From positions 35,439,511 through 35,503,510 of the forward strand of contig NC_056000.1 of the NCBI RefSeq assembly GCF_018446385.1: a DNA stretch of 64,000 nt. The letters run 5' to 3'. Origin of the DNA: Zingiber officinale (taxonomy: Eukaryota; Streptophyta; Magnoliopsida; Zingiberales; Zingiberaceae). Of this stretch, positions 19,501-48,200 are shown one piece after another (position 1 is the stretch's first letter; every line of letters starts with the position of its first letter). Position numbers and translations under genes: made by a program. Under the pieces are notes generated by a model. That model was given only the letters and a program-made list of their open reading frames with translations. It did no database searches and was not told the DNA's origin.

Positions 19501-19603
19501 AGACCACAAAGAGTGTCCGATAGGCAGAAGTTCACTCAAGGCACTACTCGTCTAGTCAGTCAGACCTGCAGCCTCCTTCGACTAGACTCGAGGAGAAGAC
19601 TTG

Positions 19604-23490: not shown

Positions 23491-24515
23491 ATTTGACCTT
23501 TTTATAATTTTTCCTTTAAAAAGAAAATTTGACTCCTTATTGGTCCAACTTTTTTTTCAGAATTAGACAGTTAGTCAACGACGGCTAAAGTTTCTTAATT
23601 AGACTTCATATGAATCTACTTGTATTACGTTAGATCTAGTCTAATTGACGTGTAATAATAATGATAAAATTATGTGGTTGATTATGATAATATTTGTCTT
23701 AAACAAGTGGGAGATAGAGTTGACTATGATTATTTTTAATTTTTTTCAAAATTTTGATTATTTTTTCAACAAAGGAAATTGACCTGATAGAGTCGTCAAT
23801 TGGATTTGAAGCTATCACATTAGCCCTATCCTTCAAATAATTAAATTAGTCGATTTAAAATTTTATCAATTTATTGAAAAACTGATCGGACTAGCTTGTA
23901 TCCAAAAGAGCTAGGGAAGGTTCGGGTTAACTCCCAAGTCGAGAAAAAAAATACAAAATACAAAATAAAAATAATCAAATTCAATTAATGAATTATAATT
24001 TTTTAATTTTTTATTTTTCTATGGAATAGACGATTTAATTCTCAACCTATTTTAAATTGGACTAAATTAGAGATTTCTCAATTTATTAAAATAGCGGGTC
24101 AATCCAGCTCACCCTATTAGATGATAGATTTTTGATGGATTACCTGTGTCGTGAATTGATCCATTTGACCGCTCTAACATTGCTCACATATGCAATTTCA
24201 CATTCTTAATTTCAAATTAGATTTGATCCCACTACAGTGTGAAAAAAAATGTCCTTCGTTATTATTTCCATAAAAAAAATTAGTTGTATATTTTTTATCC
24301 CAAATATTATTATTTTAACGTATAAATGTATAAAGTGCTAAAGTAGTTGTTATAATATAAAGTACAATTACTTTAATTTTAATTTGGTCAAAATTATTAT
24401 AGTAAGACTGTTATATTAAAATATTTTTAATAATTTGATTATTGTATTTATATTTGATAAAAAATTATCAATACTGCTATAATAATTACAGCTCATAGTG
24501 GTTACAATTATACTA
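23491..24515. other. AT-rich intergenic region
   Basis: 3' flank of the kinase gene and AT-rich spacer. I see no gene, RNA or clear repeat. Confidence 0.6.
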
Positions 24516-25439: not shown

Positions 25440-26109
25440 CATAGAGTAATGACACCAAAATTTTTTTTCTTGAGACTAGTATACTCTGTGAACAATTATA
25501 CTTCTATTTTATATAAAATATGTCTCAATTATTCTATTATTTTATAAAAGTAACCATAAATACTTAAAACTCTTTATAGATAACTCGTCATCTTCTATTT
25601 TAATAATTATATCATTATGTTCAATATTAACAAACTTAAATTTTATATATTATTTTTTTACTCTACTAAGCCTAAAATTTTTACTTGAAATGTTTCTCGG
25701 CAAGATTCTAGTTCACTTTTACTCTTTCATATGTCTCATTTACCAAAATAATATAATTTAAAACAACACGTACTGCAATACCATATTTGATATGTCCAAT
25801 GAGTTTGTTCGTAATTAATGTAAAAAGATATGGACTTAGAGTTGATGATTGATGTAACTTTATCTTTATAGAAAACACTTTAGTTAATCCACTTGAAGGG
25901 TTCACTTGTTATTATATCCTCGTATATATCTTTAATTAGTTCAATATAAACTATGCTAACACATTTGTTTTCTAGAATTCTCATATAATTTTCCTTTGGA
26001 CTATATCGTAAACTTGTTATAGATCGACGAATACCATATGTAAGTCTTGCTTTAATTTTCGATACTTTTAATTAGTTGTCTAAGAAGATATATAATTCCT
26101 ATTATCGAA
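25440..26109 (-). pseudogene. LINE reverse-transcriptase fragment, 3' part
   Basis: Broken minus-strand frames match L1-like plant LINE reverse transcriptase in order from right to left. IYLLRQL comes first (about 26060-26100), then a region equivalent to the FIDLEKAYD motif (about 26010-26030). The segment LHQSSTLSPYLFTLI (equivalent to HQGSALSPYLF) follows at about 25800-25850. Next is YIILVNET at about 25740 (equivalent to ADDIVLVDET, with the catalytic DD lost), then the later RYLGS-type region. Many stops. The 5' part continues at 44218 after an 18 kb insertion. Confidence 0.75.
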
Positions 26110-26231
26110 TGATGCGGTGATAAGAGGCCCACCAAGTACGGGTCAAGGACAGAGATAGCAGATGGTGTGGAGGTAAAGTCTAGGTCAATATAAATGTCAA
26201 AGTCAAGGTAGTCAACGCTAGAGAACCAATG

Positions 26232-27006
26232 TGTAGGTCCCTTGCGGTCGGGCAGAGGAGGGCGAATAGCCGACACAATAAATTCAAACAAAACACCTTT
26301 CGCAAAATTATAGCTTGATTAAAATAAGCACTTGCATAAAAGAATTAAGAATCTAATTAAAAGAAAGAGGCACATAAAGAGTTACATGATTTACAATCAG
26401 CGGATTACTAATCTAAGGAAATTAAAGCTCACTAAAAATCTTATTTTGGTGGAGTAGCCTCTTACAGTAGTCAAAGCTCACAATTACAAAGCTAAATTCA
26501 AATGGAATCATTTTCAAGTGTTGTCTTTAACTTCTAGGATCAGGGTTGTATTTAAAGTCCTGATCGGGATGCCTTGAAGGATTCCAAGCACTGGAGGGGG
26601 ATACAATTTTATCCCTATCATAATGAATCACGACAACTGACTTTGCGATAAACTTTTTGGTCCAGACGCCTGGACTCGCTACAGGTGCCCGCACCCGCTT
26701 AAACTCGATTCACATTTGAGGGTGCCTCCGGGGGTGCCCTCGGCACCCGAGGTGGTCCGAGCGCCTGGACCAGATCTGGGCACCCAGACCACAATCAACA
26801 TCCAGTTAACTTTTCATCCGAGTCTTCCACTGCAGCTCCACTTGCTTGAGTGATTTCAGCCATCCGGAATAAGGCTCACCCGAACTCATTTTTTTTGGCC
26901 TTCTCCAGCAACCTTCCGCTCCAGATTCTCGTCCCTCAGAACCATTGCCCGCTTCCTTCTCGTCCGCCAATGTACTCTTCCGTAGCACCTCGTCCCTCGG
27001 AGGCAA
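26232..27006 (-). repeat. 3' LTR of element D, inner part
   Basis: Homologous to 42490-43270. It shares the block from GGCGAATAGCC, CACAATAAATTCAAACAAAAC to CACCTCGTCCCTCGGA. It is interrupted at 27006 and resumes at 32969. Confidence 0.82.
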
Positions 27007-27792
27007 TATCACGCCTCGAGGGTATACTTGTTTGCCAAATCGGACGATACCCCTAGTGACAATATAGGAAATACGATATCAAACCAATTCAAGCCAACAT
27101 AAAAATACCGATATAATATAACAACACCAAGTCACAAAATGATAATATGTGTATATATGCATGTACATGTGAACATACTCAAAATCCAATACAGAAAGAA
27201 GCTGCAACCATAAACAATAGGAGTAATAATATAAAGCAACTCAACGAAAACCCAACTGTAACGGGACTAGCAGCCAAAACCTCTGAGCAACATAATACCT
27301 CCTCTATCAGCTAACCTGAAAGTTAAAGAAAAAACAAAGGGTAGTGAGTACAACCACTCAGTGGGTAGAAGAAGATAGTGTATGCATAATATACTGACAG
27401 GAGATCAAATGATGCAGTCTTAGGTGAAATACTTACTAACCAATATAGGTGTCCCAACATAATCACTAGCTAATCAAAAGTATAACCAATAACATAGTAC
27501 TTTTGTAACATGCTCAACCAAGTATAACCAACAAATTGAGAGTACATACAGTACATCCACACCTGCACGCACAAATATATGGCCAACATATAGCAAGTAT
27601 ATAAAAAAACACTGACTGCGGGAGAACACTCTACCATGGAAGGTCACGTGGGCAGTCAGGGTAAATGATAGTCACTGTCTACAGGCGAACTCGCTACCAC
27701 GAATGGTCTCATGAGCAGATAGGGTATATACATAGCTATCTAGCTACGGACTGCATACGAACTCACTACCACGAATGATCTTATGGGCAGTC

Positions 27793-27824
<32 letters not shown>

Positions 27825-29228
27825 CGATTCTCTCAACTACGAATGGGAGACAATGGTCGACAGGATATAGCAACCAAGGGTCTAGTAGGATCCTCGAAAA
27901 TACTATACTATAGTATAATTCTACTAATGTATAGGCATGAGCCTATATAACAAGTAAGAGTCTACTAGGATACTCAGTATCCTATATTACGATATAATCC
28001 TACTAGTATATAGGCAGAAAATAGACAATCACATCCCCAAGTTACTAGTCACCTAGCATTAATATATCGACTAATTCCATGGAATCATCTCAAATATAAT
28101 AAACAACGGGATCAAGATAAAATGATCTTAGGGGTTGATTCAAAGGGGAAGGCCTAGTGGAATACACTACCCTTCTGCTAAGGAGTGATTTTCAACAAGT
28201 ATAGGTCAGTATAATCTCACTAATATACATGCCCTTGCACTAGTATACAACTATACTACTTATAATATCAGTGATCTATAGGCACGAGCCTATGTAACCA
28301 TACTATAACATAAATTCACTAACATAAGCTATATGCCTAAATAACAACAAGGGTCTATTAGGATACTCAATATCCTATACTACAACATGAAATAATAAAC
28401 AAAGGTTTAGCAAAATGCTTGAAATTCTATACTATGGTATGATCATCCTAACAATAAACACAGAGTTAAATCATTTACTAAAGGTTCTAGCAAAATATCC
28501 AATGTCCTACACTACGTTATGGTAGTATCATGCATATCCATAAACACAATCATGGATATTAAACATAATTGCATAGCTATCAACAATAAATCAACATATA
28601 AGGACAAACAATAAGGTATCAAATTCAGGAGTGACATAGGATAGACTTAAGGTAAACGAGTAACTGCGATCTTATCAAAATATGACAGTAAACAATCATG
28701 CATTATAATTAAAAATATCAAGAAGATAAGCAGGATCTACTCACCTCGATGTAGCGTGTCTAAATGGTCTTCAAGTCTATGAGATCACATCGAGCTCAAA
28801 TTCTATAAATATAGGATAAAAGGAACCTAAGAGTCTATTAATCAATAATCAAGCCCTATTGATTAATTTAGTCAACTTATTAATTCATTCATCTATCTAT
28901 TGATTAATTAAATTAACGTATTAATCAATCAATTAAATAACTTATCTATAACAATCAATTACCCAAATTAAAGAATTAACTAGTAATATGTAATCAAAAT
29001 TTCTAATCTAGATTAGTTGAATTAAGCCAATCAAATTAACCTAACCTTAATTAACCCAAAACCACCCTATACCTAGGTTAATCAAAAACATCATCTGCAT
29101 GCTTAAATTAATTGTTACTCGCAACTAAAGGATGTTGGGCTCCTGGGCTACCCACTGCGAGCGCTTCCCGATTTACCCTAGTGACCGGTGGGAAACTTCC
29201 GTGGGGTCGGGCCGATCACCCCAAGCTC

Positions 29229-31936
29229 TGTTAGAGTGTATACTAAAAGCCTAGCTTTTTGTAAATATTTATTTTGAAATAAAGAATCACATTGGTCAAA
29301 TATCTACGTTTATACTAAGTGTAGTTGTTTAATTAATTTATATTGTAGATAATATGGTGTGTGGTGTCACACACAGAAGATCATGTTATCAGTTCATTAT
29401 AAATTATAAACAGTAGCTCATGACTAAGATGGATAGGAACAAACCATTGGAATAGTCGTAGTGTAATTTGGTATTAGTTTATCTTGACTATAAAATTACA
29501 CTAGTACACTATGAGTATATTGAGTAGGACCATTTGAGGTAATTTCTTTTTATACTGACTACATAAAAGAACATGATCTCTGTTATTATGGAAGTATGTG
29601 CTCTTAATCCTGATATAATAACAAACACATATATTTAGTATTTATTTCTTTAATTTATCAAAGGGTGTGATTTAGCTCGATAAATCAATAGACCCGATAA
29701 GTTGGGAAATAATATTATTTATAGTGTGTGTTGTTGATTATAGAAGGAAACTGTGTCCTAGTAATCTAGGTTGATAATGTCCTCAAGAGGAGCTCATAAG
29801 TATTGTCATGTAAACCCTGCAGATGGACTTAATCCGACATGACAATAAGGTTGAGTGGTACTACTCTTGGACTAAGATATTAATTAAAGTGAGTTGTCAG
29901 TAACTCACTTAATTAGTGGACATTCGACATCTTAAACACAGGGAGACTAACACACTCATAATAAGAAGGAGCCCAAAATATAATTTGGGATTGGTGCGGT
30001 AGTTCAATAATAGTTCTCTAGTGATATGAATTATTATTGATGAAATTAAGTTGGGTGCTCGGGGCGAACACGGGAAGCTTAATTTCATCGGGAGACCAAA
30101 ACCAATTCCTCCTCTCGGTCCCTATCATAGTCTCTTATTTATAAAGTCTTATACCCACTCATACCCACCTTCTTACCCACCTTAAGGTGGCCGGCCAAGC
30201 CTAGCTTGGAGCCCAAGCTGTGGCCGACCCTAGCTTGAACCCAAGCTTGGTGTGGTCGACCACAATAAATTAAAAGGATTTTATTTTTTTAAATCTTTCT
30301 TATGTGAAAGTCATGGTTTTAAAAGAGAGTTTAAAATTTAAATCTTTCCTTTTATGACTTTCTACAAAGGATTAAGAGAAAGGTTTGATATCTTTCCTTA
30401 TTTGTAGTTAAAAGGAAGATTTTAATTTTTGATAAAACTTTCCTTTTTTGTAACCATCTCATGGTTTTAAAAGAGAGTTTTAAAATTATAAATTTTTTCT
30501 TTTATAGCTTTCTACAAAAGAATAAGAGAAAAGTTTGATATCTTTCCTTATTTGTAGTTAAAAGGAATATTTTAATTTTTGATAAAACTTTCCTTTTATG
30601 AAACCATCCTCATGATTTGAAAAGAGAGTTTTAAAATTAAATCTTTCATTTTATAGTTTCTACAAAAGATTAAGAAAAGATTTGATATCTTTCTTTATTT
30701 GTAGATTAAAAGTAAGATTTTAATTTTAGAGAAAACTTTTCTTTCTGTAAATCATCCACATGTTTTAATAGAGAGATTTTAATTTATAAAAGTCTCCTTT
30801 TATAACCAACCAGGGAATTTTTTAAAGAGAAATTTTTATTTTAAAAATTTCCGAAAACAAATTAAAGAAGTTTTAATTTTTGTTTAAAACTTTCCTTGGA
30901 TGGAGGATCATGAGGTGGCTGGCCAAATAGAAACAAGAAAGGAAATATTAATTAAATTTTCTTTTCATTGGAAAAGAGAATAAGGAAGTTTTAATAAAAC
31001 TTTCCTTATTTGTCAAGACCAAGGAATATAAAAGAGAGGGTAGAGGTGCCTCACCTCATAGCAATCTATCTTGTTTGGTTCCTCTCTTCCTTGGATTGGT
31101 GGTCGGCCCTTATCTTCTTCCTCTCCTCCTTTTCTTCTACATTGGTGGCCGGCGGCATCTGTTGGTGGTTGGATTTTGCTTGGAGAAGAAGTAGAGAAAG
31201 AATGCTTTGTTTCTAGCATCCCTTGGAGCTTGGTGGTGGTGGCCGAATCTCATCTTCTCTTGGAGTTCTTGTGGTGGCCGAAACTTGCTTGGAGAAGAAG
31301 GAAGCTTGGGTGGATTCTCGTCTCGGTAGATCGTCGCCCACACGACGTCCGAGATAAGAAGAGGAATACGATAGAAGATCAAGAGGTTTTGCTTACAAAG
31401 AAAGGTATAACTAGTAATTCTATTTCGCATCATACTAGTTTTCTTTGTATAGTTTTTGAAATACCAAATACAAGAGGCATATGATTCTAGGTTTCAAATT
31501 TGTGATTTAAGTTTGTGTTCTTTTGTTTTTTTTTCGATCTTGTGATTCGATTGTTCTTTTTGGTTAAACCTAGGGTTACTATAAGGAAATTAAATATTGA
31601 ATTTCGTTAAGAGGCTTTGTCGAGGCAGTGGTGGATGTTCCCATACCCAAGAAAGTCAAGTGTCTCGCCATGTTTGACTTGGGAGCCGATTTTCGAAATA
31701 AATATTTAATTGAATTTGTAACATAGGTGGATTTGGATCTATAATGTTAAGTATCATTTGCGATCCAAGTCTAAACCTCTAAGAACAGATAAGTTAAATT
31801 TGGAATCAATAATGTTAAGTTCCATTTGCGATTCTGAATTTAATTTATAAAGAACATAATAGATTGTTAGGAAAGGTTCAGGACTTGTACAAAATTTTTG
31901 TACAGGAAAATCAGTATGATATTTCCAGTAGCAACG
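29229..31936 (+). mobile_element. Copia solo LTR, Angela/Tork-like
   Basis: It starts TGTTAGAGTGTATACTAAAA and ends near AGCAACG. It is flanked by agct(c/a) (29224-29228 and 31937-31941). The last part has the phrases GATTGTTAGGAAAGGTTC and ACTTGTACAAAATTTTTGTA, familiar from plant copia LTR 3' ends. No interior domain follows, so it is a solo LTR of 2.7 kb, long because of internal tandem repeats. The 137-residue frame at 31071-31484 lies in the leader and shows no known domain. Confidence 0.72.
30290..30840 (+). repeat. About 150-bp tandem repeats inside the copia solo LTR
   Basis: Units beginning TCTACAAA(A/G)GA occur at about 30361, 30511 and 30659. Each contains GATATCTTTCCTTATTTGTAG and GTTTTAAAAGAGAG. 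Roughly three and a half copies. Confidence 0.78.
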
Positions 31937-32968
31937 AGCTATTATCCAGCCTGATTAATCATTCTTTTTAAATTAATCGTTACCCAACTTATAGCTTGGT
32001 GGTTGTCGAGTTGCAACGGCGGTGTGCACCGGTCAAGATTGAGACAATGGATCGCGAAGGTGTGGCCCTTAATTGTTTCGCGACTTCTTCCCTCTAGCTA
32101 AGATCACAGCGGTGGTCGGGTGTGGACTAGCACGCTCCCGATAGTGGCGTGGTGCGGTTGCTCGTGGCGACGGCTGGTCGAGGCAGCGGCTACATTCCGG
32201 CTCTTTCAAATTCCTACGGTAGGGTGATGCGTTGGGAAGACCGCAAGTAGTTACGTCGAGAGGCACGGGGAAGAGATGGCTAGTGCGCATCGTTGTTGGC
32301 AACACGACGCTGTGGTGGGTGGTGACGCGGTGGACACAGCAAAGGAGACGTGTGGCGGCAACGAGGCATGCTTGTTCTTTGTGGTGAAGCAAGACGGTGG
32401 CTATTGACTCCGAGGATGAGGAAGGGAGCGGCGCTGGCGGTTGGACGCACGGCAGTCGGCGCGGTGACAGTAGTAGGCGGCAACGCGCAATGCACGTGGT
32501 TAAGGAGGGAGGTGGCACTGTGGCGAGATACACAGCGTGCACACGATAAGGGAATAGGCTGCGACTTGTGAGAAGGAGAAGCTAGATGCCGGAGGTGATG
32601 AGGCGGCGGTCGACCATGGCCTGTGTCGTTTCGCGGCTGCGCTGTACGAGCAGGCACAGTGGCGACGTGTGAGCGAGGAGAAGCGGCGTCCTCTAATCAA
32701 ACTTAGCTTTTAATTAAATAAACCTAGCTTCTAAATTAATCAACTCCTAACTTAAACGGGTATTCTAAACGAACTTTTATTTCTAACTTATTTATCCCAT
32801 AAAATATAAAAAGATTATGTTAAAATCCAGAAAAATCTAATAAGTTTAATAAATTCATATAAACCTAAATAAATTATCTGCTAAAATATATTTATTTCAC
32901 TTAAAATAATTTAATTATATCAACCTTTAATTATTTTAAATCCTTAGCTATATTTTTGATATATTACA

Positions 32969-33136
32969 TGCACTGTGTCTGTTGACTCTCTCCCGTGTCG
33001 TCCTTCTGCTAGCTGCGTCTTTTGCTCGACTTCCTGTACTCCTAAGTTCTTGCACACTTAGACACAAGGACATGAAAATATAACAGGACCTAACTTGACT
33101 TAGTTGATCACATCAAAACTATCACGGGTGCTTACA
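32969..33136 (-). repeat. 3' LTR of element D, outer part
   Basis: Homologous to 43290-43463 (CTCTCCCGTGTCGT, GCTAGCTGCGT, ACTTAGACA, GGTTGATCACATCAAAAC). It ends at ACA (33136). The adjoining minus-strand purine tract AAAAGAAAGGGAGAT (33151-33137) is the polypurine tract. Confidence 0.85.
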
Positions 33137-33214
33137 ATCTCCCTTTCTTTTGATGTGAGCAATTCCAAGTTAAGTTAAGGTCACTACAAAAAATGCAAGA
33201 ATTAGAGAAGGAAT

Positions 33215-33640
33215 CTATTCGTCGCTAAATTAAATTTGCGACGGGATAGCGACGGAAAGAGTCCCATCGGATAGAAGTTTATCGTTGCCACTGTAGCGAC
33301 GAAAAGTTAGACATCTGTCGCTATAAATAGCGGCGAATGCCTAAATGTCTGTCGCTAGGAGCCAAATAGAGCAGTAAGTCTGTTAAAAAGAATTTATGAC
33401 AAATATTTAAATATCCGTTGCAAACAGAGACAGACTATTTAAATATCTATCGCAAATAGCGACGTATATATAAATAATTCGTCACTATTTCCCTATTCGA
33501 GATATTGCAACAAATTGTAAAGGTATCGTATCCTTTAAATTAGTAACGGAGAAAAAATCTGCCTCTAATAGGGACGGAATTTCTAAATATCTGTCGCTAA
33601 TAGTGACGGAAAGTCAATTATCTGTCGCTAATGTTGCTTC
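33215..33640. repeat. CACTA left subterminal repeats
   Basis: Many copies, in both orientations, of TGTCGCTA and TAGCGACGGA within about 430 bases of the left end. In CACTA elements such arrays bind the transposase accessory protein. The matching array is at 39915-40375. Confidence 0.85.
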
Positions 33641-34329
33641 CAGTATGCACATTTTTTTCAGTTTTCCTTGTTTACATATGAATATAAATCACTCCAACCA
33701 TCACAAGTGATGATTTTCACAATAAACTCATAATACTTAACAATAAAACTGACTACACATCAATAATTACAACATAACAAACTCACAACACATAACAAAC
33801 ACACAACACATCACATCCCCAAATCTAGCTGAATTAAAATGAACTAGATACATAATAGTAAATTCAAACACAGGTCCGAATCTAATACAAGATAAAGTTT
33901 CTCCAATAAAAAGTAATCAAATACAATACATCCTAAGCAAAATAAGGAACAAAATCATCTATATGTCTTGCATGCAATTTCATTGAGATTAGTTGTGAAT
34001 AGAAAATATAATATTAAACTACAAAAAATATAACTACTTATGTTAAACTAATAAGTAGTTGAACTAACTGACATTTTTAGAAATATATACCTGCGTCCAT
34101 GGAATAAAAATATGTCAAATCTGAAAATGATTGTGCAGATATATAAAACAATCATATATGCATATAATTATTAACAAAAATATTATTATTTTTGACTTAA
34201 TTAAAAGTTAAGCTAAATGATACATACCTCAAAATAATCTACTCTGCAGGGGAATCATTGGGATCCTGGGTGTCCTGGGACTCCAAACGATATGAGGCAG
34301 TCATCTGTGAATTCTGAGAGAACGTCGCC

Positions 34330-35620
34330 GCAAATGCTTGCATATAACGAACTATCGCCTTAGTCTGAGCCTGTAGCTGTCGCATGTCTCATATCTCTGC
34401 GTCCCTCCCAGCCATTGTCTACTCCAATGACGATAGCCGAGTCCGCAAGTCCTCATTTTCCTCTCGCAATTCTCGTACCTCACTAGATGAGGAGGAGGAA
34501 GTAGGATGACCCCTGATCCCTGGAGTCCTCATCCGTTCATATATAACTTTGGCCTGAGAGCCAAGCCTATAGAGGGATATCTTCTTCTTTCCACCAACGA
34601 CATCATAATAAATGTCATTAACTGCATCGGTGGAAAGAGGTTGTAACCCCTCTCCCTCTACCTCTACCCTAGGCTGAGATGCCTCAGCAACTCTAGTAGT
34701 CATTGCTTCCTGTGTCAAAATAATAATTTTAGTAACCTCCACATAAAGTGTACAAATAGATTTACCAAATTTGATATACTTACGTTAATTGTTGAAGAAC
34801 ATTGATTGACATAAGACCCATCTTTCTTTTTATGAGTTTTATTAAAATTCTTCCAACAAGTGGGAGGTTTCTGTAATTTAACAGCATATGTAGAGAAAAT
34901 GTAAATATATTAAAACTAATAACAAAACATATGTAAGAAATATTTATATAACCTAATTTTAAACATACCAAGTCAGAGGCATACTCCACCATCGAACGGG
35001 ATTCAGCGGTATGCTTTGTAGATCTGGTGCTTGGCCCAACAGGCTCTGAATTGTGATTATTGCGTGCAATCGCTGAATTATCCTGCCAATGCTAGGCAGC
35101 CCAGATGGCTCTCCAAGCTTGCCAAACTACATCAGGAACCTTAGATGACCTGGTGCTCATCTACCTCCACTTATACATGTCCCTGTATAGTTTCAAGCGG
35201 TAGGCATTCCAAATTTTTTTGAACATTTCCTCCTGACCCTCCTCCCAAATATATCTCTTCTGCAACAATATATTTTGACAATTAATATCAAGTTAACTAC
35301 ACATATGTTTCTATTCTAAATACTTACCCAAAACTCTTTGTAATAAAAATTCTTCATATCTTGATCTACGAGCTGCCATGTAATATCAGCAGGAGATAAT
35401 TGTTCTTTAAACTTTTTTGATATATATGCTACTGCCTGGTGACCATCTGGGATAAAACTACAAGGAAAAATATTATATTAGATATGCTTGATTATTAAAA
35501 AGTAACTAAATTACTGAAATACTTACTAAATACATAATTACTTACTTGTCCCCAATAACTCGCAACACAATCTAGTCACCACGCGATCTCCGTGTTGGCT
35601 GCATAATTATATAAGCAAAA
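34330..35620 (-). pseudogene. CACTA second transposase gene (Transposase_24-like), decayed
   Basis: Minus-strand exonic fragments resemble the plant transposase family Transposase_24 (Ptta/En/Spm). One has TRSTKHTAESRSMVEYA (35020-34970). Another ORF (34742-34419) has KKKISLYRLGSQAKVIYERM, followed by a C-terminal coiled coil (EVRELREENEDLRTRLSSLE). AG-GT-like intron borders and stops occur between them. By analogy with TnpA it would bind the subterminal repeats. The exact exon structure was not resolved. Confidence 0.6.
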
Positions 35621-35737
35621 TCATAATATAAGATATACACAGTTAATATAATATTGTCAACTAAGGAGAAGAAAAAATAAAAAATAAAATTTATTAAATA
35701 TACCATGACATTGTTAAAAAAATTTAATAACCTTATG

Positions 35738-36301
35738 TCATTCTGAATCAACTAAATTAATATCTTGTAAGTTATCATCGCTAGACTTTATTGGTATATC
35801 AACTTCCTCACTACTGGGCATCTCTCCATCATCTATTTTCTCATAAGTGACATTAATATCTATAAGTAATTGTGATGTAGATTGTATTTCTGAATCAACT
35901 GAGTATATATCGACTTCTTCATTTTGATATACATAATGATTTTGGCCAATTATGGTGTTTGGCATTCCTATGGTTGACTGAGGCTTTATCTGACGCACTG
36001 CTAACTATTCACTAGGTCTTCTTCTCTTTGTTGGGTACTCAAGATAGAATACTTGATCAGCTTGTACCGCAAATATGAAAAACTCAAACTTGTTTAATCT
36101 TTTGTTTGCATTAACCTCAACTACATTATAAAAATGATGCATTCCGGTACTTATTCTTAGAGTTGGATTATACCATGAGCATCTGAACATTAATACACAT
36201 CTTATTAAAGGTATAGTTGAATACTCAATCTTGATGATTTTCTCAAGTCTACCATAATAATCAAATTGAGTATCATTGTTGTTTATGGATCCTTTACTCA
36301 A
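35738..36301 (-). pseudogene. DUF4216-like domain of CACTA transposase region
   Basis: The ORF 36301-36005 matches the pattern of the DUF4216 domain found downstream of TNP2 in plant CACTA proteins (VLMFRCSWYNP, YNVVEVNANKRLNKFEFFIF, QADQVFYLEYP). The stretch 35998-35738 continues as an acidic tail (SSEEVDIPIKSSDDNLQDIN). The boundary between them is a stop codon (36004-36002), so the chain is broken. Confidence 0.7.
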
Positions 36302-36714
36302 ACACCAGAATTATACTTACGCCTTTGTAAATCGCTTTGGGCCACATAAAATCTAAAGTCGTTAACATAATAACCTGAGTAGATTGTTATATTACGAAGA
36401 GGTCATGATGCAAGATTTTTAAGTATTTCATCTTCCACATTTGATATTCTACGATCGTTCGCCTATAACAGTAGTAATTATATAAATTAGATGCATCTAT
36501 AATACAATTACATTGTAAAATAAATAATTTACTCAATAACTTACATAAATTTGAAACCAATGTGTAAAATCATCCTCTAACTTGGTCTCTACCTCACTTG
36601 TACTTATTGATGGACTTTGTAGATATAGTTGTTATTTGTACGAGCTGTCAAAAAAGGTAATTTCAGGACATATTAGATAGCATGTCAAATATTCTTCAAT
36701 ACTGTATTATATTT

Positions 36715-37155
36715 TTACTTGAAGTATTGCCTTATGTATGGATTGACCTCTTCACAGTTCAAGAGTATGTATGTCCTCGCAACATGATAGTCCTGGTCAT
36801 TTAATTGTCTAATAATAGTTGCACCCATTATCTTACCATGAAACTTGAAAATAGAAAGCATCTTTGGATATGTTGGTTGAGTATCATCAGAATTTTGCGG
36901 ACACTTACGATGTCTTATTTTCACATGATCAGCAAAATAATAAGAGCAGAAGGAAGTTGTTTCTTCAACCAAATATACATTACATATTAATCCCTCAACT
37001 CTTGCATTGTTACGAACATTATTCTTTAATTTCCTCATAAATCTTTCAAATAGATACATCCATCTATATTGCACAGGACCACCTAGTTGTGCCTTATAAG
37101 GTAAATAAAGAGGTAGATATTCCATAGAATAAAAAAACTTGGTGGGAATATTCAT
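36715..37155 (-). pseudogene. DUF4218-like domain of CACTA transposase region
   Basis: This 146-residue frame carries the DUF4218 signature GGPVQYRWMYLFERFMRKLK, then NNARVEGLICNVYLVEET and FCSYYF. In intact elements this domain follows the TNP2 core in one protein. Here the upstream frame is interrupted. Confidence 0.75.
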
Positions 37156-37159
37156 TCAA

Positions 37160-39310
37160 GTTTACAGAGTATCATTGGAATGTCTATCTAAAGCCGACAC
37201 ATATCTGTGGGCATACCCTTGAAGTCAAATCTCTGAAAAGAGACTCAACTCTGTAAGTACTTGCCAAACATTGTTTGGAAGTAGATCATGGAATGTTATT
37301 GAAATTAGTCTTTACATAAACACGTGACAATCATGACTCTTTATTCTTAACATTTTTAACATGTTCGTATCAACACAACGTGACATATTCGAGGCATATC
37401 CGTCAGAAAAGTTGATTGCTTTCAACTAGGTACATAATGCTTGCTTACCTTATTTGTCTATTGTATAATATGCTTTCAGCTATTTACCAATTTCATTCTA
37501 ATGCAACTCAGGTCTATTCACTAATTGTTTTAATTCATCGCATGATTTTGTTGTATCTTTAGTTTTTCTATGAACATTCATCACAGTATTGAAGATATTA
37601 TCGAAGAAATTTTTCTCAACATGTATCACATCTAAATTATGTCGAACGAGTAAATACTTCTAATATAGTAGCTCTCAAAATATACTTCTTTTCCTCCAAC
37701 CACACTTGTTCATTCTTACAATGTATTTATTGATATCATTAGAGTCATCTTGATATACTGGAAGAAATCTATAACTGTCAATTTTATCAAGAACTTCTTC
37801 ACTTGATTTTGATACTAGAGGAAGTTTCCTTACCATTTCATTCATTTTGAAATTTTTCTTATTTCTTCTGAATGGGTGATCAATTGGTAAAAATTTTTGA
37901 CGATTATCAAACTAAGATATCTTTCCATTGCAAAGATGAAAATGCATCAGACTCACTCATGTAATGTGGACATATTAACTTGCTAGCTGTGCTCTATCCT
38001 GACAATATTGAGTATGCTAGAAAATCAATAATTGTCCATAACAAAGAAGCATGCATTGTAAAGTTTGATTTATATTCAATGTCATAAGTCTCAGTCCCTA
38101 TATTTCATAAATGGTCTAGCTCAGCAATCAAAGGTTGTAAAAAAATATATATATTTGCCCTTTTGGATTCTGAGGACTTGGTATAAGCACAGTAAGAAAC
38201 AAGAATTCGCCTTGCATGCACATCCATGGAGGTAAGTTATATAATGTTAATATAACTGACCAAGATGAATATTATTGTCCATAACTTCCAAATGGCTAAA
38301 ATCCATCAGCCGAAAGTCCAAGTCTCACATTATGTGATTCCATTGCAAAGGAGGAAAATATGGAATCAAGATATTTCCACGCTGGTGAGTCACAAGGATG
38401 ACACATTATATCTCTTTCGTATACATGGTTTTGATGTCATTTCATGTGGCTTGCTGTTGCGGCAAATGCATACAAGCGTTGGTAGCAGTTAACAGGAAGT
38501 AATACATAACTTTCAAGGGAATGTTTTTCTTCTTCTTTTTAGACATGTGACTACTCTGCTTATAACGAGGGTGATTACACATTCTGCATTCTATCAGTTC
38601 GCTATCTTCATTCCAAAAAAATCATGCAATTATTGATACAACAATGAATCTTCTCTACTGACAAACTCAAATCTCTAATCAATTTTTTTTGTAGTGTAGA
38701 AGCTATCAGTCATGCAGTTATCAGCGGAAAATAACTCTGACATCAATTGACACATTTCATCATAACATCATTCAAAGAAATGATGTTCTGTCTTCATGTT
38801 CAGTAATCTTACAATAGCTGATAGTTCAGAATGGCCAGAATGGACATCTTCCCACAATTCTCTCTCACTAGCTTTCAATATATCATACATTTTCTGAACT
38901 CGGGTGTAGGTGTTTCCTCTATATTCGATTGATCATATGCATTCATTGCATCGTAAACCATTGATTGCATTGAATTCAAATGCATTGATGATTTCTCTGG
39001 AGCAATCGGGCAGGATGACGAAGTAACAGAAGGTCCAATTTCTTCAAATACATACGACTCCCCATGACAATACCAGTTGTAATAATTTGGAACAAACTCA
39101 TACCTACATATATGAGTTTTCACTATATCCTCATCACAGAAAGCCGTATTTCTACATTTGCGTTGATTACATGAACACTTTAACTCGGCACCATTCAAAC
39201 ATTCTGGATGAGACTTAGCGAAATTCATAAACTTTTCAACCCCATCAAAAATTCTTGACTGATAAATCCATTGTCTAACCTATTGTACATCCAAGGCTTG
39301 TTCATATATG
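37160..39310 (-). pseudogene. TNP2-like CACTA transposase, broken
   Basis: The N-terminal transposase-associated domain is intact at 39228-38875: FAKSHPECLNGAELKCSCNQ, with Cys residues and the HICRYEFVPNYYNWYCHGE pattern. The TNP2 core (Transposase_21) follows with recognisable pieces, such as YNLPPWMCMQGEF at about 38235-38200, but contains in-frame stops (for example DGF-stop-PFG near 38300). The intact relative would cut the terminal repeats. This copy is inactive as it stands unless some stops lie in introns that I have not resolved. Confidence 0.75.
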
Positions 39311-39439
39311 TTATATCCTAATGGGAATAACATTTACAACATGGTTAATCATGTCAAACTAAGCATATTTATATTTACTAAATAAACAACATTCTATTTA
39401 AATAAGCACACAGTGTATCACTAAAGATAAGCAAAGTCC

Positions 39440-39795
39440 TTCAAATTCTAGAACCACTTGGCAGGGTCTGCTGGTCGTGCCCGCGTGCGGGTCTAGTAGT
39501 GGCTGTCGGCCACGGCTGCGGCCTGACAGAGGCTACCGGCCGTGGTAGATATTGTCGGCCATAGGAGATGTTGCTAGTCGCGACCTAGCAGAGGCTGTCG
39601 GCCATGGCCACACACAGGTAGAGTGTGCTGGCCACTCATAGGCAAAGCGTACTGGCCACGACCGTCGGCCACGACGTGGCAGAGGTTGCCGATCACGGCT
39701 GCACCCAACCAGAGCCTACCAGACGTGGCCTAGCAGTGCCTACCGGCCGCTAGCGCAGTGTGGCAGCGCTCGCCCAAAGGATGCAAGAAGAGGAA
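39440..39795 (-). repeat. GC-rich GGCCACGG-type repeats upstream of TNP2
   Basis: About 350 bases, much more GC-rich than the rest of the CACTA element. It is built from short repeats of GTCGGCCACGG / CTACCGGCCGTGG type together with GCAGAGG. It lies between the TNP2 start and the right subterminal repeats, where the promoter and leader are expected. Confidence 0.65.
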
Positions 39796-39914
39796 AAAGC
39801 CAAAGGAGAATGTACCTTAAGTCGGAGGAGGGAGAAATCACCGGAGCAGTAAAATCACCAGAGAATCGAAAGGAGGAGAAGACTGCGCGTAGGGAAGAGC
39901 GGTGACAGTCGTAC

Positions 39915-40375
39915 CCTAATATCTTAAATATAACGATGAAATATTAATTCGTCGCTATCTGAGACAGATATTTAAATATCCATCGCTAATAGCAACGAAT
40001 ATTTAAATATCAGTCGCTATTAGCTATGGATCATTTATTTATTGGATCCAAAGGGAAAAGTAGTTCCACATACACAACATAAAGTGACGGCCATTTAATT
40101 AACCGTCACTATTAACGACGAATCATTTAAATATTTGTCGCTATTAGCGATAAATCATTTAAATGATCCATCACTATTAAATATCCATCGCTATTAAATA
40201 TCTATTGCTAATAGCGACAATGTAAAATCAGTCGCTATCTCGTGGAAAAATTGGATTTTTAACAATAGCCAAGTCTATTAGCAACGGGTATTTTAAGTCC
40301 GTCTCTAATAGCGATGGAATTTAATAAAGTCTGTCGTTGTATAGAGACAAAAATTAATGTCCGCCACTAATCCCT
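39915..40375. repeat. CACTA right subterminal repeats
   Basis: The same GTCGCTATTAGCGACG-like units as on the left, in both orientations, just inside the right terminus. Confidence 0.85.
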
Positions 40376-40393
40376 ATTTTCCTTGTAGTGGGT

Positions 40394-41383
40394 AAACCAC
40401 AAACAAGTAACAGTTAAAAAATTACAAATACATAATTTTTAAAAAGAAATGTACCCTCCCCTAGACTTAATCTTTAATTCTCCCCTTTGATCATATTAAA
40501 AATGGTATTTCATTAAAATAATTTTAAAATAAAATTTAAATCAGAGTCTAAGGGATAAAAATAAGGTGATTGTTATCTAGAAAAATTATGAACATTTAAA
40601 TTTCAAAAATCTAGATTTTTATAATTTAAAAATTTACATTTAGATAAACAATTCATAGAAAATTCACCAATGGTCAAAAAAATTCCGAAAAATTTTTATA
40701 GGTAGAGAAAATGATATAGTTTCACAAGAAAATCAAGTTAGCAAGGATAACCTTGCGAAATAATTTTATATTGAAAATTTTGTATTTTGTTAAAAAATTC
40801 GTAGAAAAATAATACAATGGTCAAAAAAATATGAAATTTTTTTCTATAGATGAGTATTGGATTCCTATTTCTTGAAAAATTTAGGATCAAATTTATTTCA
40901 AACAGAAATTATATGAAAAAATTATTTAGCCAATTCTAAACAATAAAAATATCAAATCAATTCAAATGTACGACATCCATAAAAATTAAATCCAAGCATG
41001 TTTTGAAATCCAAGATAGATTCCTTTCTACCAGATTGATAAGAAATTTTTTTGAAATATTTTTTGGTGATAGTTTTCTGATTTAGTTCTTATGATATCTA
41101 TAATACCTATGAAGTCCTGAATAATTTTGAGTCGGTTGAACATGTGTGCAAGCAAAATTTTTCATATTTTCTATTTCTATTTTCAGCTTTTAATTTTCAA
41201 TTTTTATCTTATCAGAATCTTCTAATTGATAGGATATTGCCAAGGTTAATTTAATTCATCATTTTCCTTTTTATATTTTCTATTTTCAATTTCTAATTTA
41301 CACGTATTTTTTGACAACATTTTTATGAATTTAATTAACTAATCAGGAGGTAGAGACCGTACCTAACTTACCTTGTCGATTTT
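40394..41383 (-). other. Non-coding interior of element D
   Basis: AT-rich DNA between gag and the CACTA insertion. On the minus strand it contains a purine tract CAAAGGGGAGAATT (about 40482-40469), similar to Sirevirus polypurine tracts. No pol motif seen. Confidence 0.6.
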
Positions 41384-42471
41384 TTATGCTCCCCTTGTAG
41401 AGCTGCTTTCTTCTGATATTGCTCCCCCTTCATCAATGCTCTCGATGTTCATTGCAGAAGAGCTTGCTTCGTCCTCTTCTTGGTAACTTGCCATCAATGC
41501 AAGTCTATCTTGGGCTCCGATCTCTGACTCTAACAACGTTTCGTCCCACATCACTTTTATATTTTTATATTTTGACTGGATCGTCTTCTTGTTCTTCAGT
41601 TTGGGGTAGTTGTCTTTGACGTGCTCTTCTTCATCGTAGTGGTAACATCATATCTTTCTTCTCCTTCTATTATCCTGCACTTGACTAAACATATTAGTTT
41701 TAAACAACTTTTTGAATTTTCTTACCATGAATGCCCTTCTTCATCGTCGAGGGGCGTTTCAAATTCTGGTTCATCCATTTTTTCCTTTAAGACAATGTTG
41801 TGTTTGGGCTCCTTCTTTAGATCTGCACATCTAGTTTCATAAACTTCAAATGTAGAAAATAATTTATCTAAAGTACTTACCTCTAGATCCTTGGAGATGT
41901 AATATGCATCTACTAAGGATATCCATTCAAAAATCCTAGGAAAGGTGTTAAGTGTGTACCTTATCGAATCTCGATTGGTTACCTTTTCTCCGAGATTTGT
42001 GACTTTGTGAGTCCAGTGATGAGTTCCTTTGATCCTTGAGTGGAGGTGTGCAACATTTTTGCCTTCTTCTAATCGAAGGTTGTTGATCTGGTTTCGGAGC
42101 AGATCCCATCTCGCTAGTTTTGCCTTCGAGGTCCCTTCGTGTAGTTCCAAAAATTTCTCCCAGAATTCCTTGGCTGACTTGTAGGCTCCGATTCAGTTGA
42201 CTTCTTGAGATGGTAAAATGCTAAGCAGATGAAACTTTGCTTTGTCATTTGCTATGAAGTCGATTGGCTCTTTGTTTGTCCATTGGTATTCTTCTTTGCC
42301 CTTTGATTCTACAAAACTAAATTTCATAATTAATAATAAATCAAAATCTATCTTAAAGAATACCTCCATATTTTTCTTCCAGTTCACGAATTCCCCCTGG
42401 AACTTCTGTGGGTAGATGCTCAGTCCGACCATCTCTTGTGCTTCGATCGACGGTTAGTCCTCTTGAAGCAT
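41384..42471 (-). pseudogene. gag of element D, broken
   Basis: A Sirevirus-type gag of the UBN2 style. After an early stop at codon 6 the frame continues with KFQGEFVNWKKNMEVFF, then (past a TGA at 42195-42193) ELHEGTSKAKLARWDLLRNQ and NNLRLEEGKNVAHLHSRIK. A CCHC knuckle remnant follows near 41640 (CYHYDEEEHVKDNYPK, so the last Cys is lost). The tail is LALMASYQEEDEASSS. It ends at TAA 41386-41384. This gag is a different type from those of A and C. Confidence 0.8.
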
Positions 42472-42489
42472 CCTGGATCTGATACTAAT

Positions 42490-43463
42490 TATGGGACCCT
42501 TGGCGGTCGACTAGAGAGGGGTGAATAGCCTGCACAATAAATTCAAACAAAACCTTCCTCGAAACTTATAGCTTGATTAAAAGAAATACTTGCATAAAAG
42601 AATTAAGAACCTAATTAAAAGGAAGAGTTACAGAAAGAGTTACTTGGTTTGCAATCAATAGATTGCTAATCTAAGGAAATTAAAACTCATTAAAAATCTC
42701 CTTTAGGTGGAGTAGCCTCTTCTAGTAGTCAAAACTCATAATTACAAGGCTAAACTCAAATAGAATCATTTTCAAGTGTTGTCTTTAGCTTCTGAGATCA
42801 GGACTATATTTATAACCCTGATCGGGGTGTTTGGAAGGGTTCTAGGCATCTGAAGAGGAATAAAATTTTATCCCATAGTAATGGATCACGACAGCTGACT
42901 TTACGATAAACTTTCTGGTTCGAGCACCTGGACCCACTACAAGCGTCCAGACCCGCTTAAACCCTATCCGCATTCGAGGGTGCTCCGCATTCGAGGGCGC
43001 CTCCGGGGGCCCCCTCGGCACCCGAGGTGGTCTGACCGCTTGGACCAGATCCGGGTGCCTAGAATTACTCCAGGCACTCGGACCACAGTCAACTTCCAGT
43101 TGACTTTTCATTCTGGTCTTCCACTCTATCTCTGTTTGTTTGGGTGATTTCGGCCATCCAGAATAGGGCTTATCCGAATCCATTTTTCGGCCTTCTCGAG
43201 CAACCTTCTGCTCCGGCTTCTCGTCCCTCAGAACCGTCGAATGCTTCCTTCTCATCTGCCAGTGTACTCTTCCGCAGCACCTCGTCCCTCGGATGCACCG
43301 AGCCCATAGACTTTCTCCCGTGTCGTTCTTCTCGCTAGCTGCGTTTTTCGCTCGACCTCCTGTGCTCCTAAGTTCCTGTACACTTAGACATAAGGACAAC
43401 AAAACATAACAAGACCTAACTTGACTTGGTTGATCACATCAAAACTATCACCGGGTACTTACA
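42490..43463 (-). repeat. 5' LTR of element D
   Basis: About 974 bases. On the minus strand it begins TGTAAGTACCCGG and ends near GGGTCCCATA, with a C-rich box (TTCACCCCTCTCTAG). The neighbouring PBS is TTAGTATCAGATCC, a mutated TTGGTATCAGAGCC. Confidence 0.83.
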
Positions 43464-44217
43464 CAACGGGCTCACCAAAGCTAGGCCGAGCGGAGGTCTA
43501 CTACAGTTGTTGATCGGGTATGAAGTATCCGATCAACAAGTGGCTTGTTCGAGCAGAATGCTCAAACAACCAAGAGCACTATGGCAAGAACATCATATGA
43601 TCATCACGAAGCAAAGGAACACTAAGGCGACCAGAGCGTTGGTCTGATCGTGTGGAAATAATCAACTTAGCCAAGGGATTATGAAGATGATTGGATGAGA
43701 TTGACAGGGAGGGGATCCCCGACCGAGCGGCTCCCCCGCTAGCCAAACAGTGGGACCCCTCTTATATCTTTTAATATCCCTTTGGGAGATAATGTCACTG
43801 ACAATAAGGCATGGTCAACAAGCGGATCGTACGACGGAAGTTTCTATCGTTCTGTCAGGTATTTGCATGCCCTATTAAGGTATAGTGTCAAAGCCACTTT
43901 TCTGACATGTCCTTTCATAAGACAATTTGTAGAACATGCTCATGCCTTGAGGCACGACGTCTACTGGGGTGCTATATAAAGGGAGGGTCCATGCACCGGC
44001 CGAGGTACGTATTATTCACTATTCACGCCTTTACTTACTGTTGCTCCACTTCCATTTTTTTTATGACTGACTTGAGCGTCGGAGAGTCAATATCGAGGGC
44101 CCCTTCTCTGGCCCGACACTGACGTTTCTTGAGTTGAAGAGTGAAATGGATTCTACAACCTATCAACACAGAAGTCACGTCCCCAGCAAGCCTTTTCATG
44201 ATTTTCGAACAAGATCA

Positions 44218-44545
44218 TCGACCTTTCAGACATAAATTCAAATTAATTTTTGATCACCAAGTCTCCTTGGTCTTTTTTTCTATTACTCTTTCCCAAAGTT
44301 TCATGACATGACTTATCAGTTTAATTTTCCTATAGTTTGCACAATGTTATAGGTCTTTTTTATTTTTATGTAAGAGAACTATAGTACTTACCCTTCACTA
44401 ATCATACTTTTTTTTTAATATTTACCCTTCACTAGTCATTCAATACATTATTTCCCTAGTTACTTCCATACCTTTATTTGAATATCATCTGGTCTAATTA
44501 CTTTTTCATTTTACATCTCATTTAAACTTATTCTACTTTTGAAAT
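44218..44545 (-). pseudogene. LINE reverse-transcriptase fragment, 5' part
   Basis: The continuation of the LINE at 25440-26109. Minus-strand frames resemble, from right to left, the KAVGPDxIPIEVWK region (about 44500-44450), the YRGIKLMSHTMKLWERV region (about 44345-44285) and FGFMPGRS (FMSERSM at about 44238-44218). The order shows that one LINE was split by the Tat LTR. Confidence 0.7.
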
Positions 44546-45272
44546 TTAAATTTTACGATAAAAATTTAAAATTTTATACTCATTTAATCTATTTAAATTT
44601 GAGTAAATTTGATTACCTAAAACTTTATTTAAAAATTGATGAAAATATCTTTTTTATTAGTCTTTTATTTTTTTATACATTCGTTTTTAATATACCTCAT
44701 TTAGATAAGATATTTTATCTTTCCTTTTATCTCTTTTTTAATATATCTCATTTAGATAAGATATTTTATCTTTCCTTTTACCTCTTTTAGTTATTCTGTA
44801 AATATCTCTTTCTATTTTTTTTATATCCAATTTCTACTTCTTATCTTTTCTCATATCCCCTAGTATGTATGTATATAACAATCAAATAACTTTAAAAAAC
44901 ATGCTAAAATTTTGATAGCAATTTAAATTATATATACAAATAATTAAAATCATTTTATTTTGAATTTAAATATACAAATACTTAAAAAAATAAATATGCA
45001 GCAGCTTTAAATTATCCATATTTAAATTTAAAATTCGAGAAAAAAATAGTCATATCATAATTTTAAACTAACAATTTTTGATAATTTGTAAAATTTATAA
45101 ATTGCCAAAGGAACTGATTTCTTTATAAATAGTTTTGGAAACACATTTACAATGAATTGGTGATCATTAAACTCACACACAAATCACTAAATTCAAAAAC
45201 TGTGTGCTTCAAAACATTTTCCTCCTAAAATCAGAGTGTTGTTTTTAAAGAAAAAACGTGTAATAATATTGA
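44546..45272. other. AT-rich spacer with a 51-bp tandem duplication
   Basis: No gene seen. At 44689-44788 a 51-base unit is repeated twice, nearly exactly. Each unit contains the palindrome AGATAAGATATTTTATCT. Confidence 0.7.
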
Positions 45273-48200
45273 CTAAGAAGAGCAGCAAGAAGCAGCAGCC
45301 ACTGGTTTGTCATCAGGTCTGCCTGTTAGAGTCATTCCTTGAGGGTTCTGTACTGGCTTCACTTGTGTTAGTCTCTTTGCTGAAACACAACCACCAAAAC
45401 AAGTGTTAGTTATTTGTTATCGTCGCAGAAAACCAAAAGCGATGAAGAAGTGATGCCATGAAGAAGAATTTTCAGGCGCCTAACTGTCTATTACAACTAA
45501 GATAAGTAGTGCAGGAGGAAGCATCCTTTTTGGTGAAAGATGGATTCTTATTCAGGAGCTTGGCAATCCCTTAGAAAGGGCTTTACCAGGAAGAAAAAAA
45601 AGTCAGCATGGTGACTGCTCAAGTAGATATTATGGAAGTCGAGTTGGAGTTGGAAGTAATTTCAAGCTCTATGAGAATATCCTCAAGTAGGCTAAGCTCC
45701 ATGCTATGCTGATACATTGTAAAGGAACTCACCGATTTCATAGAATATGTCGTTAACATTAATTGCTGTTTTGGCCGAAGTTTCCATGAGGTAAAGGCCA
45801 TTATCCTGTGCGTATGTCTGGGCTTCCTGCAATTGAAGCATTTCATCATCTTCGATATAGGAGGAAATAAAGATTTCATGACAAGAAGATAAAAAGTTTC
45901 AAAGGTCAAAAAAATCCTATCAGCACCGATAGACAAACTAGCTACTGCTGTAAATAACATCTACAATAGAGACTTAGCTAACTGGAGCCTGGTAGCTAGA
46001 CCATTACAGGAAAGTGGTTTAGGTATTTTGAATTTGGATTTCTATAATCTAGCCCTTCCTTGTTCTTGGCGGTGGAAAGCTCTATCTGAAAAGCAACCTT
46101 GGAAAATTATCATTAATGAACTTATTTCCATAAAAGTCACTGGACTGAGGCTGCACCAACTCGGTCTTGCATTTGGAAATACCTACTTCGAGTGAGGAAT
46201 TTCATTAGTCTTGTGATCAAAAGCAAGATCGATGATGGAAAAAGGAACTACATTTTCTGGAGGGATAACTGTACATGTCATATTAGACTAATGCATGAAT
46301 TGCCACGGTCATTTGAACAGTGCTAAAATAGAAACAATGTTACTTAGGAACTAAAAGAGAATCAACCTACGAATGGAATTTTCTGGTGTTGTTTCAGAGT
46401 CACTCTAATCAATATTTTTGGGGATTGAACTATTTTGGTAGTTATACCGCTAAAAATGCATACCATTTCTTACCTTTTCACTGGCATCAGCAGCATGCTG
46501 TATGAATCAATTTGGTATTCATTCAGAGTTCAAATAGAAGGGAAAAAATTATAACCTGGCTATACCAGAAGATCAAAACTAGAGATGTTCTACTTATGAA
46601 GAGTGTTCAGATTCAGACTGTTGTGTGGGTGAATTGTGAATGCACCTCAGAACTACAACTCATCTTATTCCAGCATTGCAGAATTTTTGCCTCAGTATTG
46701 ACATGTCTGACTAACTTGTTTCAAGTTCCTATCAATCAATGCTTTGAGAGCTTATTTTATGGAATTTGGTTGTCATAGCTTCAAGGAATCAGTAGGTATT
46801 GTTTTAACACCTTTTGTCAAGAATGGTTATGGACTTTATGGACTGTTAGGAATCAAATCATCTTTGAAGGATAAATGGAGCCATCTTTCCGCTATAATGG
46901 ATCAATCTGCTTTCTGCTTGGATTAATCAGGTGCCCAGCAGAATAGAGGAAGGATCATTGAAACTGTAAGAAGGTCAATGTATATCATTAACTCTCAAAA
47001 TTAGGAAGCATGTTTGCAAATGCTTGTGTGGAGAAGTTCATGTTTGATCTGCCAACTTAAAATATTCCAGCTGTAATCCACCAGGTACTAGACTCTGTCT
47101 TCATGTATTATTTATATGAGTACTTTTAGGTGATAGTAAATTTCTCATCATCTCTTTATTTTATTTTATTTTCTAAAAACATGTTTATCAGGTGAAGCTT
47201 GAATTTAAGATAAGCTAAATATGTTCTAAGCACTAAATATCTACATGAAATGGATAAGGCACCACCAAGAAATCTTACCTCGGTTGTGACCTGTCTAGCT
47301 TCTAAAAGATCAGCTTTATTACCAGCAAGAGCAATGATAGTATTTGAGCTACCTGAAACACGATAAAGTATTTGAATATTAGATTACTCATATATCGATT
47401 AAAACAAAGTTATTTTCAGATCTATACTACACAATGTATATATCTATAGTTTTGATTTTTATGAAACATCACAATGATAATAATGCTGCAAAAATGGTGC
47501 ATTTATTTTATCACAGAATCTCCTCTTCTAAGTGATCTTAGTTTTTGAGGTCACAAGAAGATAATTATTTAGCATGATGAAAAAGACAAACCAGAATGTA
47601 ATCCCCCTATAAAACAGGCAGCAACTTATGCTTGAAGAATTGCTTCAGTATATTAACAGAGGAAAACACACAAGGCCAACAAAAAAAACTCATTAACTAC
47701 TAGCCATTGATGTTGTTGGTGCTTATGCATTTTCCTAACATTAGCTAAACGAAAGAGGAACATAAATGGTAAGCGAGAATAAATTAAAAGTGTTGGTCAT
47801 TCATGAAGATCACTTAAAAAGTGATATAAAATGCTACAATAGCCAAACATATTGAATGATGAGAAAATGAGTCACTTAACCATTCAATCCTGAAAAAGTG
47901 AACTCTATCCACATCAACTATAAAAATGAACTAAATGCTACCTTGGGCTTGAAGTTCTTGAACCCACTTCTTTGCTCGAGTAAATGTAGCCTGCAAAATG
48001 AATGGCATAATGATTAACATACAATTTGAGTTTCTTTTGAGAATATAACCACTGTATGTTTTTGCATTGGTTTGAACTTCGGAGATGGTAAGTTAGAGAG
48101 GAAACAATTATGTTAATTCTAACCTTCCTGTATCTTAACATATCACAAATTCACAATTCAGATCTCTTCCCACTATGTTAGTCTTGTCATGATAGCTAAT

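Follow-up and report, generated by a model that had tools for sequence, protein, structure and literature searches.

We analysed a window of 64,000 nucleotides of the ginger (Zingiber officinale) genome (G000:C15:35439511-35503510, in a 3.09-Gb assembly). In it, a lectin receptor kinase gene (21490-23487), whose product shares 99% identity with a Zingiber officinale protein and 90% with one of Curcuma longa, and a minus-strand gene with an open reading frame (ORF) near 48.7 kb, which we take from its motifs to be Rab-like, bound a stack of transposable elements. The outermost is a long interspersed nuclear element (LINE). It contains a Tat-like solo long terminal repeat (LTR), which contains a retroelement here called D; the 3' LTR of D contains a Tekay-like solo LTR, and this in turn contains a copia solo LTR. 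A CACTA transposon forms a separate branch within the interior of D. This nesting order, with its five levels, had been proposed in a first-pass annotation, and it holds in the refutation tests named there (rejoining the LINE and the Tat-like pieces), in genome copies elsewhere and in the other haplotype of the assembly (haplotype B). We are very nearly certain that the five-layer stack arose by successive independent insertions whose order can be read from their target-site duplications. Its features, from left to right, are these.

25461..26109, minus strand: LINE, 3' part; reverse transcriptase domain with many stops (tblastn with relatives, genome copies); left end approximate
26105-26109: TCGAA, left copy of the Tat-like LTR duplication
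26110..26231, no strand assigned: Tat-like LTR, first part; starts TGATG (aligned to the LTRs at 17168 and 19604; haplotype B junctions)
26227-26231: CAATG, left copy of the D duplication
26232..27006, minus strand: D 3' LTR, first part (LTR alignment)
27002-27006: GGCAA, left copy of the Tekay-like duplication
27007..29228, minus strand (by eye): Tekay-like LTR, first part (genome copies start at 27007)
29224-29228: AGCTC, left copy of the copia duplication
29229..31936, plus strand: copia solo LTR, 2708 bp, flanked by AGCTC/AGCTA
31937..32968, minus strand: Tekay-like LTR, second part (only 32821-32962 aligned with the related LTR L055)
31937-31941: AGCTA, right copy of the copia duplication
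32969..33136, minus strand: D 3' LTR, second part (LTR alignment, genome copies)
32969-32973: TGCAC, right copy of the Tekay-like duplication
33137..33181, minus strand: D internal end with polypurine tract
33179-33181: GGT, duplication by the CACTA element
33182..40390, minus strand: CACTA (En/Spm) transposon, 7209 bp, ends CACTACAA, GGT/GGT, degraded transposase genes
40391..42489, minus strand: D internal region with primer site and copia-type gag (Retrotran_gag_2, E 1.5e-10)
42490..43463, minus strand: D 5' LTR, uninterrupted (distance to the 3' LTR; genome copies)
43464..44217, no strand assigned: Tat-like LTR, second part; ends GATCA
43464-43468: CAACG, right copy of the D duplication
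44218..44833 (at least), minus strand: LINE, 5' part (relatives, junction peptide test, genome copies)
44218-44222: TCGAC, right copy of the Tat-like LTR duplication

Rejoining the interrupted LINE and Tat-like LTR

Pfam searches of the LINE frames left two stretches without a match and gave one weak RVT_1 hit, on the left part (E 0.0045, short of the Pfam cut-off), so relatives were used for the LINE instead. We found 72 related reverse transcriptases, 71 of them 31-46% identical to the LINE over the aligned parts and one 28%. In all 25 relatives printed from the tblastn comparison, the residue order is consecutive across the split, with right-hand matches ending at 44278-44236 and left-hand matches starting at 26067-26058. 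A peptide spanning the junction was then scored without gaps against the 72 relatives. The mean was 36.2 with one duplication copy retained, against 6.2 with none, 6.0 with two and 9.6 for shuffled sequence; one copy was the best junction for every relative (72/72), at a modest mean identity of 8.7 of 26 residues. Genomic LINE copies were also fetched, and three of four (L052, L053 and L054) run contiguous and ungapped exactly across the junction point, L052 and L053 reading TTGAC where the window has TCGAA/TCGAC. Thus the claim that the LINE frame continues across the 18-kb gap is borne out by removing the insert plus one duplication copy. That the two LINE pieces are instead separate insertions flanking a transposon cluster might be entertained on the grounds that both are diverged and that the genome holds many LINE copies (the left piece alone had 4114 first-look candidates), but the consecutive residue order, the frame that closes with one duplication copy only and the contiguous genomic copies make this explanation scarcely credible.

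The borders first proposed for this split minus-strand LINE, 25440 and 44545, need correction: family matches start at 25465 in the best copy and extend to 44824-44833 on the right. When we looked for a target duplication made by the LINE itself, only a T-run 9-mer turned up. Within the LINE, a 51-bp tandem duplication lies at 44681-44782 and is seemingly single in haplotype B (by eye). Beyond it, a plus-strand ORF near the Rab-like gene (45893-46195) resembles, by eye, a fragment of another LINE.

The two Tat-like pieces had been predicted to form one LTR. We found that 26110-26231 and 43469-44217 align jointly, both ends included, to LTRs at 17168 and 19604 in the window (71-79% in matched blocks), which supports the prediction, weakly in part. 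The lineage name is putative and comes from one motif beside a relative: the related LTR 17168-18609 is followed by TTTGACACCGTCTATGGGAA, which resembles a Tat/Ogre primer region. The LTRs at 17168 and 19604 belong to a second element of the same family (17168-20498), with LTRs at 17168-18609 (carrying an insertion of its own) and 19604-20498, an interior of less than 1 kb and TATAT on both sides.

Target-site duplications

The duplications claimed for the stack are present: TCGAA/TCGAC flank the Tat-like LTR, CAATG/CAACG flank D, AGCTC/AGCTA flank the copia LTR inside the Tekay-like LTR, and GGT/GGT flank the CACTA element inside D. They match at 4/5 bases for the Tat-like LTR, D and the copia LTR, at 3/3 for the CACTA element and at 3/5 for the Tekay-like LTR. 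As a control, we took the share of boundary pairs shifted within 60 bases that match equally well. This share was 0.022 for the Tat-like LTR, 0.017 for D, 0.021 for the copia LTR, 0.024 for the CACTA element and 0.11 for the Tekay-like LTR. A contiguous host across the insertion point was recovered for the LINE, for the Tat-like LTR (weakly in part) and for the D LTR; for the Tekay-like LTR the argument is from length and ends only.

Element D and its family

Element D spans 26232-43463 on the minus strand and has two LTRs, a primer site and a polypurine tract; its interior is 2141 bp without the CACTA element. The primer site differs in places from the usual TGGTATCAGAGC. Of the ten minus-strand ORFs of at least 40 aa in the interior, one matches gag (Retrotran_gag_2) and none matches pol, a search that shorter or frame-broken remains would escape. 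The short interior and the lack of a pol match could mean that D arose by deletion from an ordinary autonomous copia element and is not a member of a gag-only family. However, D-family LTR pairs elsewhere lie about 3.36 kb apart (C15:14324669/14328032 and C16:12253152/12256523), giving a similar element size of about 4.3 kb, and the same gag adjoins the LTR in all six loci checked of 30. Furthermore, a relative of 464 residues (P0193) matches 42369-41001 and so ends near the end of D's readable gag. On this evidence a deletion derivative is improbable, and membership of a gag-only family is preferred. Relatives of the D family proteins number five, and all three named ones are from turmeric.

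The Kimura two-parameter (K2P) distance between the two LTRs of D is 0.174 +/- 0.016 over 931 sites. Seven LTR pairings among other D copies, each from the same or a neighbouring element, gave 0.179-0.213, values roughly on a par with the smallest distances that separate different elements. Judged from these distances, the D family may have multiplied in one old burst. At C4:103827695-103835351, three D-family LTRs stand in a row at 3.4-kb spacing, as expected from unequal LTR recombination. Elsewhere in the window, direct repeats at 1882-2846 and 7473-8432 are 96% identical and enclose a gag-like ORF (2904-4622, by eye); 1882-8432 is possibly a second gag-only LTR element, with an inverted 76% copy at 7-1407.

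The inner layers

That the 3' LTR of D is split by the Tekay-like LTR, as first claimed, is confirmed by D's other LTR, which reads TGCAC uninterrupted at the insertion site, and by L055, which starts at the same position. The borders of this layer accordingly rest on D's other LTR, the genomic D LTRs and the start and flanks of L055, rather than on the duplication. L055 is a solo LTR of the same family, 3337 bp long, flanked by TTTCC/TTTCC and without a copia match inside; the window copy measures 3249 bp. A second copy, L056, shares the family start at 27007 with L055. The label Tekay is putative; the comparison covered LTR sequence, and two ORFs in the LTR had no Pfam match. Downstream of the copy at L056 (G000:C15:130611250-130614800, at ~3000-3500), the minus strand resembles a Ty3/gypsy reverse transcriptase by eye.

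The genome searches scored 40 candidates each. For the copia solo LTR they returned three full-length copies besides the window's own, 92% identical across 1-2707 (40 scored of 22,268 candidates). Four of eight copia LTR loci (one is the window) show AGTAGYAACYAACA followed by ATTGGTATYAGAGC, an iMet-type primer site, from which we presume the label copia. Relatives end in AGTAGYAACYAACA before the primer site, and the window LTR ends in AGTAGCAACG, without the last four bases of its relatives. Because those bases are absent, the right border is placed at 31936 from the duplication. This end would be explained by loss of one CAAC unit plus a base change, in which case AGCTC/AGCTA stands. No copy with an empty AGCTN site was seen.

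The CACTA element has CACTA termini, a 3-bp duplication and a tnp2-type transposase; its domains are Transposase_21 (E 1.2e-30), Transpos_assoc, DUF4218 and DUF4216. It lies beside the Tekay-like layer rather than within it, and the two are not orderable relative to each other.

The second haplotype

Haplotype B (C16:30026001-30096000) aligns with window positions 21880-50062 in seven blocks; its left flank matches at other places too and includes about 23 kb of other DNA. It shares the LINE, the Tat-like LTR, D, the Tekay-like LTR and the CACTA element, and six of the ten stack junctions are seen in it. Layers 1-4 and the CACTA branch are common to both haplotypes. The Tat-like LTR has a perfect TCGAC/TCGAC in haplotype B, compared with the mismatch in the window, and the right D duplication reads CAATG, like the window's left copy. 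The left Tekay-like duplication is GGCAC, which raises the match to 4/5, and the LTR starts TGTCACG. It may therefore be that one of the two Tekay-like mismatches and the window's TA terminus arose later; TA is likewise the start of L055 and L056.

Several insertions are confined to haplotype B. Its Tekay-like layer carries a copia LTR flanked by GAATA/GAATA, which is in turn interrupted by 13.4 kb of inserted DNA (GAAAA/GAAGA); the window haplotype has a different copia insertion in that LTR. A complete copia element lies in the D gag (GTTTC/GTTTC; LTR distance 0.016 +/- 0.003). An insert of about 190 bp with a 14-bp duplication lies in the Tat-like LTR, and by inspection it resembles a short interspersed nuclear element (SINE). 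A SINE-like sequence at 18818-18999 of the window, with tRNA-like boxes by eye, is an 81.5% relative of this insert. With at least six layers in the haplotype B allele, one could picture the stack as a continuing insertion sink, in which silenced nested DNA may attract elements, and the D burst as perhaps confined to the ginger family; we hold this picture tentatively and consider it rather unlikely.

A number of observations weigh against reading the locus as a stack of successive insertions. Of the four genomic LINE copies, L051 is gapped where the two pieces meet. Only the first 49 of the 122 bases of the left Tat-like piece have a clear match in its relatives. D's left LTR lies 0.196 from its right LTR in the family alignment and 0.190-0.194 from the nearest three LTRs of other elements; that D's LTRs are not nearest neighbours would fit an old burst, yet it weakens the pairing of LTRs by similarity alone. 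The Tekay-like duplication, GGCAA/TGCAC, matches at 3/5 bases in the window; the central part of this LTR has diverged too far for an alignment with L055, and the match to L056 stops at 28949. At the Tekay-like site, 27 further genomic D LTRs run through without a break, as does the uninterrupted LTR from either haplotype (TGCAC in 10/29), but the search reports continuous matches, so that interrupted copies would go unlisted. The count omits L021, L022 and L046, which are copies from the window itself or from haplotype B itself, and the uninterrupted D LTR of each haplotype was added separately. The left D duplication of haplotype B is shortened to CAA by the loss of two bases. Finally, 28928-37265 (8.3 kb) is missing from haplotype B, which therefore gives no check on the copia LTR or on the right Tekay-like and left CACTA borders.

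Mismatched duplications, together with deletions such as that of 28928-37265, raise the question of whether the stack arose partly from recombination, inversion or assembly joining. We judge this very improbable. Both assembled haplotypes share the six junctions, and each insertion's duplication has the length expected for its class. Moreover, of the three mismatched duplications that can be compared, haplotype B has one perfect, one improved and one confirmed by its right copy. Successive insertion remains our reading of the locus.

Ages of the layers

The two haplotypes diverge by 0.052-0.142 within the stack; the corresponding values are 0.077 for the intergenic flank on its left and 0.011-0.013 for the two gene regions. 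The LTRs of D differ by 0.097 and 0.132 between haplotypes, and the LTR-to-LTR distance of D for the part left in haplotype B is 0.180 +/- 0.018. D (0.174, present in both haplotypes) is therefore older than the haplotype split, and the haplotype B copia element (0.016, absent from the window) is younger. At the grass-based substitution rate of 1.3e-8 per site and year, D would be 6.7 million years old. With the rate of 6.5e-9 per site and year that one ginger genome paper applied (PMC8342499), the same arithmetic gives about 13 million years.

The best non-allelic copies are 85% identical for the LINE (next 79%), 82% for the D LTR over its full length, 82% over 1.9 kb for the Tekay-like LTR (shorter matches up to 89%) and 92% for the copia LTR. 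These identities run in the expected way for the four layers, but nearest-copy identity is a weak proxy for age because of the limited number of candidates scored and because families differ in activity. CpG depletion, tried as an age clock, gave no ranking of the layers. The expectation that ages rise outward is borne out only for D, the haplotype split and the haplotype B copia element. At the right edge of the LINE (~44840), divergence between the haplotypes falls from ~5-10% to ~1% within ~150 bases, and more gradually at the lectin-kinase gene (23400-23700). This drop may reflect selection, methylation-driven mutation or old haplotype blocks.

Discussion

The history that we propose would begin with insertion of the LINE between the lectin-kinase and Rab-like genes. 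An LTR retrotransposon of the TGATG...GATCA family would then have entered the LINE, duplicating TCGAC, and later recombination between its LTRs, as the flanking duplication suggests, would have left one Tat-like LTR. Into this LTR, D, a gag-only copia-type element, would have inserted on the minus strand (CAATG). An element with 3.25-kb LTRs would have followed into D's 3' LTR (TGCAC) and been reduced to a solo LTR, and the CACTA transposon would have entered the D interior (GGT) at a time, relative to that step, not given by the nesting. Last, a copia element would have inserted into the 3.25-kb Tekay-like LTR (AGCTC or AGCTA) and likewise become a solo LTR.

The stack is real and well resolved, but its biology is not new, since nests of this kind are ordinary in plant genomes. 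A literature search on ginger and nested insertions returned no title on this locus among the matches listed. The locus offers a clean example of five layers and a side branch, in which two haplotypes let mismatched duplications be compared. Insertions can also be assigned to the time preceding or following the haplotype split. The example can serve annotation and help to calibrate how active transposons have been in ginger.

Individual layers resemble known elements. The LINE belongs to the same reverse transcriptase family as plant L1-type LINEs (some annotated 'Pol polyprotein LINE-1'), but it is a pseudogene, seemingly truncated at both ends. The CACTA element shares its CACTA ends, 3-bp duplication and tnp2 transposase with known CACTA (En/Spm) transposons and is degraded but otherwise ordinary. 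D is like the TR-GAG elements, described as non-autonomous LTR retrotransposons with LTRs and a gag domain and without pol (PMC6022998): it has LTRs and gag, and pol was not found. It differs in having family relatives of its own, the named ones from turmeric.

As a whole, the locus shows the same sequential insertion into earlier elements as the nested clusters of plants such as maize and wheat, for which REANNOTATE, TEnest and CLARI-TE are used. Taking order from containment and age from LTR pairs is the standard approach to such clusters (PMC2672092). For wheat chromosome 3B, 30,199 nested insertions were reconstructed, up to eight layers deep (PMC4290129), and five layers are ordinary by that measure. 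What sets the ginger stack apart from the maize and wheat nests is its particular families and the two haplotypes of one assembly, which help to date its layers.

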